Assembly: GCF_002847445.1 (NCBI RefSeq)
Contig: NZ_CP025430.1
Location: 682,001-746,000 of the forward strand
Reading direction: 5' to 3'
Source of the DNA: Paracoccus zhejiangensis
Lineage (GTDB): Bacteria > Pseudomonadota > Alphaproteobacteria > Rhodobacterales > Rhodobacteraceae
Length of the DNA stretch: 64,000 nt
Below are positions 20,331 through 25,450 of this stretch, piece by piece. The notes under the pieces are model-generated. The model was not told where the DNA came from. It searched no databases and saw only the letters and a program-made list of their open reading frames with translations. Both the position numbers and the translations under genes were made by a program. Numbering within the stretch: the stretch's first letter is position 1; the number at the start of each line of letters is the position of its first letter.

Positions 20331-22232
20331 ATGAGTGAAGACAGCCTCGCCCGCATCCTGCTGCAGATCCTATCCTCGGTGCGCCTGCGCAAGGCGCAGG
20401 CATTGCTGTATTTCCTGCTGGCCGATCAGGGCGGGGTCCATCGCTCGGACAAGATCATTGATCTCTTCTGGCAGGAATCCGACCAGCAAAAGGCCTCGTC
20501 CTCCTATCGGCAGGTGATCCGCCACATCCGCCGCGAGTTGGATGCCGCGCAGGAGATCACGCTGGAAACCGGGTTCGGCGCGGTGTCGCTGCGGCTGCCG
20601 GGCGGGTTCTCGTTCCAGAACGAGGTGGCGACCGGGCTGGCCGCTGCAGGCTGGAGCGAGGAGACCGCCGAGATCCTGCGCGAGTTCGTGGGCTATACCC
20701 TGCGGCTCGAGGGGCTGAGCTCGTCCTTCGACAGCTGGCTGGTGATCACCCGCAACAACCTGCTGTCGCTGTTGCGCAAGACGCTGGACGAGCGGATGAA
20801 GGCGACCGATGGTGCGCGGCTGGCCGAGTTGCGCGCGCCTGCCGAGTTCGCGCTGGGGCTGGAGCCGGCGAACGAAACCGCGGTGCGCATCCTGATGACG
20901 CTGGACTGGCAGTCGGGTCACTCGACCCGGGCGATCGAGCGTTACAACCTGCTCTATGCCCATCTGGACGAGGAATACGACCAGGAGCCGGAACCCGAAA
21001 CCATCGAATTGCTGGCGGCGATCAAGCTGAGCCCGGCGGCGGGGGCGGTGCAGAAGCAGGTGGTCAACCGCCGTCCCGAGGTCTCGCTGAGCGTGGGGCT
21101 GATGCCGGGCGAGGGCATTCCCGCCGAGATGGTCAGTTTTGGCACGGTGCTGTTCTCGGATATCCGGATGCGTATGGGGCGGTTCCGCGAATGGCGGGTA
21201 CTGGACGACGAGGGGGGCGAGACCGCGCAGGCCCGCGTCACCCTGCGCCCGATCTATGCCCTGCAGACCTATCGCCTCTTCGTCGAGGTGCAGCGCGGCA
21301 CCGACCGTCAGCTTCTCTGGTCCGAGATGATCGAAAGCCCCGAGAGTGATTGGGAAAGCAAGGCCCGCCGGTTGCTGTCGAACATCGCGAACGCGCTGTC
21401 GGTGGTGGTCTCGGACCGCTCGCTGTCGGAATCCGGCACGCATATCTATGACCGCTGGCTGAAGGCGCAGGCGCTGCTGGACGACTGGTCGCCGCAGACC
21501 GAAAGCGCGGCGATGGTGATGCTGGAAGAGATCACCCGCGAGGCGCCGCGCTTTGGCCCCGCCCATGCTGAACTGGCCGGGGCGCTGAACGTCCGCCATG
21601 TGCTGCTGCCCGGCACCCGCCCCAGCGACGAGGTGAACCAGCGCGCCCTGCACCATGCCATCGTTGCCGTCTCGATCGACCCGCTCGACACCCGGGCGCA
21701 TCGGGTCGTGGCCTGGTGCTATTGCCACAAGCGGGAATTCGGTCTGGCCGAGTTCCATTTCGACCAGTCGCTGAACCTCAACCGCAGCAACCCGCTGACG
21801 CTGGCCTCCTGTGCGCTCGGCTTTGCCTTTGCCGGCAATCCGGGCCGCGCCGCCAGCCTCGTGGCCGAGACCAAGGCCCATGCGGCGGTGATGGAGCCGT
21901 TCCACCTGATCTACCTCGCCGCCGCCGATTACCTGCTGGGCGACTACCAGGCCGCCGCCGAGGAATGCAGTCGCGGCGGCGGGCTGATGCCCACGGTCGG
22001 CGGCTGGCACAGCCTGTCGCTGTGGAAGCTGGGGCAGGAGAAAGAGGCCGTGCAGCGCTTGCGCGACTACACCGCCGAGATACGTGGCCTGTGGCGCGGG
22101 TCAGCCGAGCCGACGGATGCGCGCATCCTCGACTGGTTCGGCAATTGCTTCCCGCTGCGCGACGCCGCCGCGCAGGCCGATCTGCGCGCGACGCTGGACC
22201 GCGTGGCCCAAACCGCCGCCCTCGCGGGCTAG
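20331..22232 (+). CDS. BTAD/SARP-like transcriptional regulator with TPR repeats
   Basis: A 633-aa cytoplasmic protein with no membrane segment. Residues 1-85 look like a winged helix (LLYFLLADQGGVHRSDKIID...SSYRQVIRHIRREL), 95-250 a bacterial transcriptional activation domain ending in AIERYNLLYAHLDEEYDQEPEPETIELL, 265-375 a TolB-N-like alpha/beta segment found in CadC/adenylate-cyclase-associated regulators, and 380-630 TPR-like helical repeats. The start has no clear ribosome-binding site. Its stop overlaps by four bases the stop of the convergent unknown gene. By position it is the likely regulator of the peroxidase/YcaO block. Confidence 0.75.
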   Translation: MSEDSLARILLQILSSVRLRKAQALLYFLLADQGGVHRSDKIIDLFWQESDQQKASSSYRQVIRHIRRELDAAQEITLETGFGAVSLRLPGGFSFQNEVATGLAAAGWSEETAEILREFVGYTLRLEGLSSSFDSWLVITRNNLLSLLRKTLDERMKATDGARLAELRAPAEFALGLEPANETAVRILMTLDWQSGHSTRAIERYNLLYAHLDEEYDQEPEPETIELLAAIKLSPAAGAVQKQVVNRRPEVSLSVGLMPGEGIPAEMVSFGTVLFSDIRMRMGRFREWRVLDDEGGETAQARVTLRPIYALQTYRLFVEVQRGTDRQLLWSEMIESPESDWESKARRLLSNIANALSVVVSDRSLSESGTHIYDRWLKAQALLDDWSPQTESAAMVMLEEITREAPRFGPAHAELAGALNVRHVLLPGTRPSDEVNQRALHHAIVAVSIDPLDTRAHRVVAWCYCHKREFGLAEFHFDQSLNLNRSNPLTLASCALGFAFAGNPGRAASLVAETKAHAAVMEPFHLIYLAAADYLLGDYQAAAEECSRGGGLMPTVGGWHSLSLWKLGQEKEAVQRLRDYTAEIRGLWRGSAEPTDARILDWFGNCFPLRDAAAQADLRATLDRVAQTAALAG

Positions 22233-22951
22233 CGGCACATGTTCGTCGCGTAGATCCCGACCGAGCGGTAGAAGGCCCGGAGCGGGCTTTTCATGATTTC
22301 GTTCTTCACGTCATCCGCCGCGCCGCCGCCGGCATCGTTGAACACGCCCCGCGCCTTCAACGTTTCGGCCATGTGGCGTTCCAGCGCGTCCTGCAGCGCC
22401 TGCGTCCAGCCCGGTTCGCCCTTGGTGGCGAATTCGCGCGTCATCTGCAGGATCTCGTCCTTCATGCTGGCCAGCATCAGCGCCCGGTCCAACTCGTAGG
22501 ACAGCGGCGGCCGGAACCCGTCCGAGCTGCCCTGGTCCTGCAACTGCTTGTCGGTGATCTCGAGCGTCTGGTCCGAGGGCACGACGAGGATGCGGGTGTT
22601 GCGGTCGGGCTTCTTTTGCCGGCGCTTGCGGCGTTCGAACTCGATCCGGACATCTGTATTGTCGAGGATCGCGGCGCGCTCGTCATCGCTCAGCGCCGCG
22701 CCGCCGCTCTGGACCGAGAAATCCTGCACCATCAGCGCGTGCCGGACCTGGTCTTCCAGCTTGTCCAGCTCGGCCGGCGGCAGGCCGCCCGGGCCCAGCT
22801 TCGACAGCCGGACCATCAGCTTGCCGATGAATTCCACGTTCAGCGGCTGGCCGTCGCCGCCCTTCTGGTCGTCGATGCTGCCATCGCCATGCAGGTAGAA
22901 GGCCGCCTGATCGACCTCGCTGCCGACGATCACGTATTGGTTGCCGCTCAT
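22229..22951 (-). CDS. Protein of unknown function linked to the peroxidase/YcaO block
   Basis: A 240-aa soluble, highly charged protein without signal peptide, membrane segment or a family I recognise. It is Asp/Glu-rich at the N-terminus (HGDGSIDDQKGGDGQPLN), has a very basic patch RRKRRQKK near residue 110 and helical C-terminal segments; the only Cys is next to last (NMCR). It lies five bases after the heme-peroxidase gene on the same strand, so the two are co-transcribed. Candidate roles are a structural partner or a substrate of the YcaO-like enzyme, but neither is shown by the sequence. Confidence 0.7.
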   Translation of the reverse strand: MSGNQYVIVGSEVDQAAFYLHGDGSIDDQKGGDGQPLNVEFIGKLMVRLSKLGPGGLPPAELDKLEDQVRHALMVQDFSVQSGGAALSDDERAAILDNTDVRIEFERRKRRQKKPDRNTRILVVPSDQTLEITDKQLQDQGSSDGFRPPLSYELDRALMLASMKDEILQMTREFATKGEPGWTQALQDALERHMAETLKARGVFNDAGGGAADDVKNEIMKSPLRAFYRSVGIYATNMCR

Positions 22952-22956
22952 CTGGA

Positions 22957-24402
22957 TTACCCCTTTCTCACAGTAGCGATCAGTTCAAGCATGGTGGCCG
23001 GATGCGGCAGGCCCTGCGCGCCCCGGCTGCCGGTGGTCAGTTGCACCCGCGCGATCGAGCCCTCGATCGAGCCGCGCAAAAGCGCGCTGCCCAAGGGGCC
23101 GAACCCGCCTCTGACGCCGTGCAGCTGCGCCTCGATCATCAGCGTCTGGAACAGCGGACCCCATTCGATCATCTGGGTCGTCACCTTCACCGGCGAGGCG
23201 GGAAAGCGGGTGTTGAATTCGGGGGTGATCGTCCCCGCCGCCAGCCGTGCGGGCCAGGGCGCGGGCAGTTTCGCGATGGCGGCCTCGATCCGGTCATTGC
23301 CGGCGCGCAGCGGTTCGGCCTCGCGGGCGGACTCGGCATCGAGGGCGATCACCGCCGCAGCGGTCGCAGGGTGGCGCAGTTCGGGCGCGACGCTGGCCGA
23401 GAGGCCGGTTTTCGGCCCCCCGGGCTTGGCCCCGAAGAACAGGTCCCAATCGATGCTCCAGTCCAGCTCGGCCTCGCTGTGGTCAAAGCCGGTTCTCAGC
23501 ATCGCGCGCAGATTATGGGTGCCGCTGCGCCCGAGGTGATAGCCGGCCAGCGGCAGCGCATGGAAGGCGCGGAACAACCCGTGCAGCAGCGTCGCCTCGT
23601 CCAACTGCCATTCGTCGGGCAGGGTGGGCAGGGCGGCGATCTCGGGATGCAGGAAGCGGGGCAGGATGTCGCCCGTGACGATGCCATGCCAGACCCGCAC
23701 CGCATGGTTGCGCACCGCCACATAGGCGGGGAAGGGTCGCATCCCCTCGGCCATCAGCCGGCGGGCGCAGAGATTGTGGAACTGCATCCAGGCCACCGAC
23801 AGCTCGTGCAGCATCAGCGAATCCCGGTTGCGCTCGTCATAAAGCGCGCGCAGCGGCTGCCGGTCGCCGCCCGGCGCGCTGTCCGCCGCGAAGCGATAGA
23901 CCCGCGCCAGCCGCGCCCCGGGCGTCAGCCGGAACAGCATCTGGTCGGGGTCATAGACATGCGACAGCATCGTCGGCCCCGGCCCGTAGATGGTTTCCAG
24001 CGTCAGCGGGTTGTCGATCAGGTTATAGCGTCGCGGTCCCAGCACCGAGACCACGCCGACCACATCGCCCCGCGTCGCATGGGGCACCGCCGACAAGGGC
24101 ACGCTGCAACCCATGTCATGGCCCATCAACTGGCCGAGATAGGTATAGCCCGAGGGGATATGTGCGCTGGCCTCAAGGCAGGCGCGGCGCCAGGCCGGGT
24201 CAGCGCGCAGCAGGAACTCCGGCCGCTGGCGTGGCACCGGTGTCACCGGGTCGGGCGTGCCGATGACCGGCGCGGCAGCGGCAGAGCGCGCGGCGCTCGG
24301 GCGCTGCGACGCGGGTGGTGCCGGGTCGATTGGGGCGGGGCTGCAGCCGAAACGGCAATTGGCCAGCAGGTCGCCGGGGTCGGGATCAAGCGTATCGGTC
24401 AT
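22957..24402 (-). CDS. Animal-type heme peroxidase homologue
   Basis: A 481-aa protein with the distal side of the peroxidase-cyclooxygenase superfamily: YTYLGQLMGHDMG (Gln91, His95, Asp96) and a YDERNRDSLMLHELSVAWMQFHN block with Arg191 at the distal-Arg position and a later HN. The proximal motif normally read as AYRFGHS aligns by eye with GYHLGRS here, putting Arg292 at the heme-ligating His and His289 where Arg is usual. No signal peptide is seen; a Pro/Ala-rich N-terminus precedes the domain. ATG at 24402 opens directly on the first Asp-rich segment. It lies between the YcaO-like and unknown genes, all on one strand. Confidence 0.83.
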   Translation of the reverse strand: MTDTLDPDPGDLLANCRFGCSPAPIDPAPPASQRPSAARSAAAAPVIGTPDPVTPVPRQRPEFLLRADPAWRRACLEASAHIPSGYTYLGQLMGHDMGCSVPLSAVPHATRGDVVGVVSVLGPRRYNLIDNPLTLETIYGPGPTMLSHVYDPDQMLFRLTPGARLARVYRFAADSAPGGDRQPLRALYDERNRDSLMLHELSVAWMQFHNLCARRLMAEGMRPFPAYVAVRNHAVRVWHGIVTGDILPRFLHPEIAALPTLPDEWQLDEATLLHGLFRAFHALPLAGYHLGRSGTHNLRAMLRTGFDHSEAELDWSIDWDLFFGAKPGGPKTGLSASVAPELRHPATAAAVIALDAESAREAEPLRAGNDRIEAAIAKLPAPWPARLAAGTITPEFNTRFPASPVKVTTQMIEWGPLFQTLMIEAQLHGVRGGFGPLGSALLRGSIEGSIARVQLTTGSRGAQGLPHPATMLELIATVRKG

Positions 24403-24451
24403 GCGTCCTTTTCCTCGTCCCGCCTCGTGGCTGCGCCCATCTGCGCGCAAT

Positions 24452-25330
24452 CTACATGAAAGGCACGCCGGTCCGGTCATTGAAAATCGGCACTGGCAGG
24501 TCGGGCTGGCACAGCCAGACCGCGATGGGGCCATCGGGCGGGGTAATGTCACGTTCGGTCAGTGCGGTACCAAGCCAGAAATCGGGCGTGGACCCGGTCG
24601 CAGCCGTGTCGGTCGCGGCGGGCGTTACCGGCGGCAGCGACGGCAGCAGCGCCGGGCCGCGTCGGGCATAGGTGGCGATGCGCTCCTGCGCCGGATGGGG
24701 GTGCCCGAGATCCAGCCGGCGCGCGGCCAGCAGTTCCATCAGGTTCATCTCCATCAGGAACAGTTCGCGCAGCGCCTTCTGCGCCGCCTCGACCGGGTCC
24801 ATGGCACAGCCATAGCCGATCACCGGGTCCTGCCCCTCGGGGCTGATGCTGCGGCAGACCATCACCGCCGGCTGGTCGGGCCGGGTCTCGATCTGCCACC
24901 AGCCGGTGCGCCGCTTCAGCGCCGCGCCAAGCCGGGCGATGGTGACCATGCCGGGCAGCCCGGTCGCGGCCAGCCAGCCGTCGTCCAGCGGACGGGCCGG
25001 CACCTCCTCCAGCCACCAGCGCGCCACCGCCTGACGCTCGAAGGCCTCGAGCTGCGCGAAACGGCGGGCGGCCTCGGGTTCGACATGCGCAGCGAGCCCG
25101 TCGCGCAGCGGGGTGAAGCCCGCGCGCAGCGCCGCCGGGAGCGCGCTCAACGCCTGGATTTCCGCAGTTTCCCCCAGGCAGCGCTGATAGGCGGCCTCGC
25201 GCCCGCGCCCGACGCCACTGGCGGTCCCGCCCTTGGTCAGCGCCTGAAGAATCACGGCATTCGGCGCGAAGAAGCTCTCGCGCCAATCGAATCGCTGCCA
25301 CGTCTTGGCAAGATCGCTGGGTTTACTCAT
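24452..25330 (-). CDS. Divergent YcaO-like protein
   Basis: About 292 aa. It shows the skeleton of the YcaO ATP-dependent fold: GGTASGVGRGREAAYQRCLGETAEI (ExxE at about 54/57, the Mg-ATP site), LEAFERQAVARWWLEEVPARP (the ERDA..WW segment of TOMM cyclodehydratases), and GQDPVIGYGCAMDPVEAAQK followed by ALRELFL (second ATP-site helix). It is shorter than most YcaO proteins and has no E1-like or leader-peptide-binding domain. YcaO enzymes make azolines, amidines or thioamides in ribosomal peptides. An alternative start is ATG at 25342. It is first in the minus-strand block with the heme peroxidase; gatB ends 121 bp upstream. Confidence 0.68.
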   Translation of the reverse strand: MSKPSDLAKTWQRFDWRESFFAPNAVILQALTKGGTASGVGRGREAAYQRCLGETAEIQALSALPAALRAGFTPLRDGLAAHVEPEAARRFAQLEAFERQAVARWWLEEVPARPLDDGWLAATGLPGMVTIARLGAALKRRTGWWQIETRPDQPAVMVCRSISPEGQDPVIGYGCAMDPVEAAQKALRELFLMEMNLMELLAARRLDLGHPHPAQERIATYARRGPALLPSLPPVTPAATDTAATGSTPDFWLGTALTERDITPPDGPIAVWLCQPDLPVPIFNDRTGVPFM

Positions 25331-25450
25331 CAAACTGATCATCTGCTTCTACTACCCTGGTGTCGGGACGGTTGCCCTGAACCCAGACTAGAAAAAGCCG
25401 CGTGATCTGTCTGTGAATTTGCTGCGGAGCGAGGTGTCAGCGACCGGGGA

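Follow-up and report, generated by a model that had tools for sequence, protein, structure and literature searches.

Which substrate is served by a YcaO enzyme that is encoded together with an animal-type heme peroxidase, a 240-aa protein and a BTAD regulator? This question is raised by a four-gene cassette of Paracoccus zhejiangensis, which we analyzed within a stretch of 64,000 nucleotides (contig NZ_CP025430.1, positions 682,001 to 746,000 of the forward strand; here named the window and counted from its first letter). We consider it probable, at roughly 0.58, that the cassette is a protein-tail modification system resembling those of ribosomally synthesized and post-translationally modified peptides (RiPPs). 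Proteins ending in the tail in question or in a similar one are here referred to as tailed proteins, and L and G numbers designate the loci and genomes compared. A first-pass annotation of the window had suggested that the genes modify and oxidise a peptide or protein, the substrate being either the 240-aa protein or a small peptide that was missed. The general proposal is supported, as the YcaO domain was confirmed by a hidden Markov model (HMM) and the genes are regularly adjacent; the chemistry is put forward below in conditional form. All four open reading frames (ORFs) were located as annotated, with three minus-strand genes facing a plus-strand BTAD regulator.

The four genes form a real and conserved unit. 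Among relatives from the genus and the family, searches of 146 genomes found the YcaO enzyme in 11 and the peroxidase in 12; for the 240-aa protein, 148 genomes were searched and 11 had it. The same 11 genomes carried all three; the match in the twelfth peroxidase genome was weak, partial and from another family. The flanks were compared by searching the ORFs of window positions 10000-36000 (60 aa or longer) against 13 loci of 12 genomes. Here, the near-identical isolate L013 had the same flanks as the window. In the other 11 genomes, which belong to more distant Paracoccus, all matches came from ORFs within 20331-25405 and the flanks were not common. A relative of the regulator was found in 12 of these 13 loci, in L046 as a partial match; L051 is a second contig from one of the genomes. 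Between the window and L013, its nearest relative, the differences fell mainly on third codon positions in all four genes.

The linkage extends to plasmids and other genera. All six plasmid records hold the YcaO, peroxidase and 240-aa genes adjacent to each other, and a profile search with the 240-aa protein found 6 of 295 family genomes, namely the window and five other genera. YcaO, peroxidase and a tailed protein are carried by the loci of these five genera, by a plasmid of Phaeobacter inhibens and by two Paracoccus plasmids, one of which is the same locus as L043. The regulator was present in seven of these eight loci (five genera, Phaeobacter and two Paracoccus plasmids), the exception being L065. 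The neighbourhood survey, which the first-pass annotation had named as a check, thus found homologues of the genes regularly adjacent in other genomes.

Some loci are individual variants. In G083, YcaO and peroxidase are located at the ends of two contigs, which resembles an assembly break. A cassette without an adjacent regulator is present on a plasmid of Paracoccus sp. SMMA_5_TC, where a relative of the BTAD regulator (L071:5953-7851) lies away from the cassette beside an operon of a TRAP transporter and an aminotransferase. L046 (G057:C2:1402501-1422500) is a degenerate copy with the 240-aa gene in two pieces and a partial regulator; YcaO and peroxidase look intact.

The most conserved element within the unit is the C-terminus of the 240-aa protein (22229..22951, minus strand). 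The protein had no Pfam or usable NCBIfam match, and its AlphaFold2 model (predicted local distance difference test score, pLDDT, 74) gave no match in the PDB at an E-value of 0.001 or better. The proposed core, AFYRSVGIYATNMCR, is encoded by the final 15 codons (22232..22276, minus strand); the codon of its penultimate Cys is 22235-22237. In 17 homologues the last 15 residues follow the consensus [AS][FY][HY]R[SA]VGIYxTx[MA]C[RKDN]. Among ten diverse members taken from these 17 sequences, the mean pairwise identity was 0.759 in the tail and 0.332 overall. The tail was the highest-scoring stretch of 15 columns, the best one not overlapping the tail region reaching 0.679. Six distant homologues shared 27-33% identity with the window protein in the body and 60-73% in the tail. 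Alignment A1 was made without L046, in which the 240-aa gene is broken, and alignment A3 without L042 and L046. The tail codons vary synonymously, and therefore the constraint is on the protein. The 240-aa gene overlaps the convergent regulator gene by four bases in the window (22229-22232, as annotated before) and by about 51 bp in L059, L060 and L063. The antisense overlap was rejected as the cause of the conservation, since L058, L061 and L062 have none and keep the tail.

Of the two substrates initially suggested, we prefer the 240-aa protein to a missed peptide, given the conservation of its tail, the similar tails in the sister systems described below and the lack of any ORF above 24 aa wholly within the gaps of the cassette. 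These gaps measure 119, 5, 49 and 108 bp. Counting from 15 aa upward, they wholly enclose just two ORFs, of 24 aa and 19 aa, which share the gap preceding the regulator, so that a missed small peptide is not favoured. A reading as an anti-phage defence system was dropped as well, since the PADLOC models gave 0 families for the four cassette proteins at E 0.1.

Similar tails were found on different protein bodies in a second, looser group of loci. A plasmid search with the peroxidase led to Mesorhizobium huakuii, where a full-length YcaO protein, a peroxidase and a 133-aa protein ending in LRAYHCRLGDYVMSRCK are located together with a convergent TPR regulator, which shares 25% identity with that of the window across its length. 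Further plasmid systems were found in Paroceanicella profunda and in Rhodobacteraceae QY30. At the level of the class, the peroxidase family PF03098 was present in 23 of 289 genomes and the YcaO family PF02624 in nine of those 23, including the window's own genome; both occurred within 4 kb of each other in G654, G612, G475 and G478. In a sample of the phylum, 37 of 349 genomes carried PF03098. Sixteen of the 33 newly examined ones also carried PF02624, and the pair lay within 4 kb in G943, G860, G913, G901 and G924, all belonging to the class of the window. The YcaO protein of G924 is a remnant under the cut-off. Seven of 12 genomes outside the class had a YcaO protein, none of them close to a PF03098 gene. 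In total, there are twelve looser sister systems.

In 11 of these 12 an ORF beside the peroxidase ends with a similar tail, the Cys being located two or three residues from the C-terminus, and a full-length relative of the regulator is present in 11 as well. L076 is the exception, with a doubtful tailed candidate elsewhere in the locus and a weak partial match to the regulator. Gene orders other than that of the cassette occur among the sister systems. Several of their small proteins are related to each other; the 240-aa family did not align with six of them in hhalign. Several sister tailed proteins (e.g. L077:4033-4506) look similar to nitrile-hydratase-like leader peptides (NHLP). The 240-aa protein and the tailed proteins had no NHLP match in NCBIfam, Pfam or PDB sequences and alignments A1 and A4 do not align, so this relationship is not claimed.

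Three features of single sister loci were observed in addition. The 183-aa tailed protein on the unannotated Rhodobacteraceae QY30 plasmid record (L070:8792-9343) contains an EF-hand-like stretch, under the Pfam cut-off. The regulator ORF of L070 is longer (837 aa), and its N-terminus reads as cyclase-like. In G913 a second peroxidase homologue (L082:10091-11857) adjoins the YcaO gene of the sister system.

How specific the tail is to these loci was evaluated with a regular expression. The 3284 distinct ORFs scanned (60 aa or longer; L013-L018, L042-L052, L058-L079 and the window) gave 25 matches, each of them a candidate substrate. The expression had been fitted to the first tails and was therefore applied unchanged to five loci obtained afterwards. 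In each of L081-L084 exactly one ORF matched (of 78, 88, 72 and 70, respectively), the one beside the peroxidase. When the tails of sister proteins were shuffled 5000 times, no shuffle scored as well as the tail from Mesorhizobium, which is strong, and six did so for Paroceanicella, which is fair. Keeping the Cys fixed changed these counts to 5 and 85, respectively.

The YcaO enzyme (24452..25342, minus strand, 296 aa from the preferred start) matched PF02624 with an E-value of 2.3e-14 and 53.9 bits at a cut-off of 25.7, so that the annotation based on motifs held in the HMM search. The end of the gene at 24452 was correct as well, but its start was moved from 25330 to 25342, because the extra residues match the N-termini of homologues; the underlying alignment was made with the shorter start. 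The best NCBIfam model was SagD, in the window protein (46.3 bits, cut-off 219.25) as well as in five sister YcaO proteins scanned. Profile searches of the PDB gave weak matches to TruD, MusD and LynD (TruD at E 0.0033), and the nearest solved YcaO domains of the Mesorhizobium protein are likewise cyanobactin heterocyclases. Judged by these profile matches, the YcaO domains are nearest to azoline formers. The window protein is compact, and a segment carried by most sister YcaO proteins is largely missing from it. As in clusters of thiazole/oxazole-modified microcins (TOMMs), a YcaO domain was found together with an adjacent precursor candidate that carries a conserved Cys-bearing tail at its C-terminus. 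We infer that this tail is the core of a RiPP.

The annotation as an animal-type heme peroxidase (22957..24402, minus strand, 481 aa) stood in part. The window protein itself had no Pfam or NCBIfam match at E 1, but it is identified by relationship, because its homologue on the Phaeobacter plasmid (41% identity over 86%) passes the PF03098 cut-off. Of the homologues scanned, those of L063, L058 and L066 were over the cut-off and that of L062 was under it. Five positions (Q91, H95, R191, R278 and H281 in window numbering) were invariant in 17 of 17 aligned peroxidases of the system. By analogy with mammalian peroxidases we take these to be the distal Gln, the distal His, the catalytic Arg, a propionate Arg and the proximal His, respectively. 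The AlphaFold2 model had a pLDDT of 47.7 and was too poor for a fold search. Seven other plasmid matches (Microvirga, Nostoc, Palleronia, Paracoccus yeei, two Rhizobium and a second SMMA_5_TC match, the latter to the regulator) had no annotated YcaO neighbour in the stretches viewed. Away from the cassette, the window's genome also has pieces of An_peroxidase, on a different contig and within an open frame of 2081 aa (G000:C2:255673-257622).

The regulator (20331..22232, plus strand, 633 aa) is convergent with the operon. Its BTAD domain scored 29 bits (cut-off 22.1), Trans_reg_C 23 bits and thus just under the cut-off of 26.2, and TPR was under the cut-off. The combination of BTAD with an OmpR-type winged helix and with 11-bp direct repeats at the putative target promoter is that of Streptomyces antibiotic regulatory proteins (SARPs). 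The repeat WTCAC-N6-WTCAC is the proposed operator. It occurs as a single copy in the window (25402..25417, minus strand), against 0.26 expected, and precedes the YcaO start by about 60 bp. The count across loci covered 18 of them; L050, whose contig has no ycaO, was omitted, as were L013, L016 and L064, which are near-duplicates or represent the L043 locus again. In 14 of the 18 the repeat was found on the same strand at most 200 bp upstream of ycaO and only in L059 on the other strand, with two copies elsewhere in the loci (L060 and L062). Since the motif was spotted by eye in these upstream regions it is fitted, and its scarcity elsewhere in the loci serves as the control. In seven sister loci the repeat was inconsistent: three had none, and just two, L077 and L078, had it close to the start of the peroxidase.

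According to PMC4393881, SARP sites consist of two direct repeats 11 bp apart, the 3' repeat being located 8 bp upstream of the -10 element. A TA was found 8 bp after the 3' heptamer in 6 of the 14 loci, and after 9 bp in the window. Based on the conserved repeat, this site layout and the BTAD score over the cut-off, the operon is predicted to be controlled by the regulator, which we regard as likely. L058, L059 and L063 contain an inverted copy of the WTCAC repeat upstream of ycaO, which may serve a divergent neighbour; L059 has no other copy within 200 bp. Another element, CCCTGGTGTCG, was present in two exact copies before the regulator and ycaO. Its four matches at up to one mismatch were within chance (10 of 100 shuffles), and none of 11 loci had a common stretch beyond the largest of 40 shuffles; it was therefore dropped.

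The linkage of the genes, the conservation of the tail, the repeat and the invariance of the putative heme-pocket positions were observed directly, and from them the following mechanism is proposed. The 240-aa protein would be the precursor, with about 225 residues acting as leader or scaffold and the last 15 as core. The YcaO enzyme would recognise the body and, with ATP, cyclise the penultimate Cys onto the preceding amide, which would result in a C-terminal thiazoline. The heme peroxidase would then use hydrogen peroxide to oxidise the modified core. Its target could be the azoline, converted to an azole in place of the usual flavin mononucleotide (FMN) dehydrogenase, or a conserved Tyr, His or Met. 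The finished tail might be either released or retained. The regulator would turn the operon on by binding the 11-bp direct repeat before ycaO. An azoline-forming YcaO enzyme that engages a long folded leader has a precedent in MprC/MprE7, where an FMN dehydrogenase completes the azole (PMC12455567).

A number of observations weigh against this proposal. The unchanged regular expression matched none of 81 ORFs in L080, because the tail of this locus, AYLLGTILLRRCR, has an Ile at the Tyr position. In the shuffle test of 5000 the support was modest for L070 (54), L077 (61), L078 (67) and L079 (77), and L076 failed (1011). With the Cys held in place, 1119, 395, 481, 470 and 3347 shuffles scored as well for L070, L077, L078, L079 and L076, respectively, and the candidate proteins of L077 and L079 contain another stretch scoring nearly equal to the tail. 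Since the shuffle tests were mostly modest, similarity across types is a matter of the position, the Cys and the [VLIF][GA]xY part rather than of long identity. The repeat is absent before ycaO in 3 of the 18 loci (L048, L061 and L062). Every scanned YcaO protein, of the window and of the five sister systems, was under the cut-off of the SagD cyclodehydratase. Among the four cassette proteins, Pfam and NCBIfam gave no match to a ThiF-like protein (including the E1/ocin-ThiF-like partner), to TfuA, the partner that is a criterion of thioamide RiPPs, to an FMN azoline dehydrogenase or to a RiPP recognition element, although divergent elements of this type can escape these models. The FMN dehydrogenase is found in many, not all, TOMM clusters, and a fifth gene common to the compared loci was not found either. 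No peptidase or exporter was common to the compared Paracoccus loci. Finally, in L084 (genome G924) YcaO is reduced to a remnant of 94 aa (L084:7706-7990), with the neighbouring peroxidase, tailed protein and regulator intact.

The last two points would also fit the strongest alternative, which we regard as rather unlikely. In this view, the three proteins would form a complex in which the tail functions instead of being modified: with its Cys it would dock into the peroxidase or the YcaO protein and serve there in redox reactions or metal binding, and the complex would act on a small molecule or on a different protein. Near-invariance would be expected of a docking arm, and the tail shows it within the family Rhodobacteraceae. 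However, conservation of the tail-bearing body does not extend across the types, and YcaO enzymes normally modify peptide backbones (general knowledge; PMC12455567).

Improbable in our view is a second alternative, in which the YcaO enzyme or the peroxidase targets the other one or a cellular protein and the tail is a signal for targeting, degradation or export. Sorting signals are generally known to look like short conserved C-termini too, and the modification of the tail is itself deduced indirectly. A general signal would, however, not be expected only beside YcaO/peroxidase pairs, as was observed among the 3284 ORFs of the examined loci. That the genes are adjacent by chance or hitchhike together on mobile DNA is hardly credible: the cassette is located at different places and on several plasmids, but the three genes occur in the same genomes, recur in other gene orders and are linked in other genera and families, and the loci share a repeat.

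Modification of the protein tail by the YcaO enzyme and the peroxidase therefore remains our preferred reading, and the cassette, undescribed within the literature searched, would be a variant of peptide modification by YcaO for which a plausible substrate is at hand. Judged by the titles listed, the pairing of YcaO with a heme peroxidase was not found in that literature, which covered neither preprints nor most subscription papers. A wider interpretation is possible, and we offer it tentatively. The systems may represent a new RiPP-like class of Alphaproteobacteria, in which a SARP-controlled YcaO enzyme and a heme peroxidase, replacing the flavin azoline dehydrogenase, make a redox-active or metal-binding protein-derived cofactor from a conserved C-terminal peptide carried on different bodies. 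Across these bodies the peptide approximately follows [FY][HY]..[RS][VL]GxYxxxxCx. As the tail is near-constant across genera, it suggests a conserved physiological product, comparable to protein-derived cofactors, rather than a diversifying antibiotic. If the proposed function is correct, heme-peroxidase chemistry would be added to the YcaO-modified ribosomal peptides, and the short near-invariant substrate would allow the modification to be read directly by mass spectrometry. The conserved repeat offers a handle for inducing the system.

Compared with known systems, each component has a relative from which it differs. The cyanobactin heterocyclases TruD, LynD and MusD are the nearest solved domains, but the window YcaO is shorter and the match weak. 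With SARP regulators such as OtcR (PMC4393881) the window regulator shares the BTAD domain with a winged-helix-like N-terminus and the 11-bp direct repeats before the target promoter. In contrast to them it has a long TPR part, its binding is predicted and no classical antibiotic cluster is linked to it. The peroxidases keep the invariant Gln, His, Arg, Arg and His of animal heme peroxidases (PF03098), and homologues are over the Pfam cut-off, whereas the window member is below Pfam detection and belongs to a branch tied to YcaO and a tailed protein. The closest comparison as a whole is the MprE/MprC/MprD system with its NHLP precursors, as described in PMC12455567. Both have a YcaO enzyme with a long structured leader and an adjoining Cys-bearing core at the C-terminus. 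However, the leader of the window cassette is longer and without NHLP match, a heme peroxidase is present where the FMN dehydrogenase would be, and ten different precursors are replaced by one near-invariant core.

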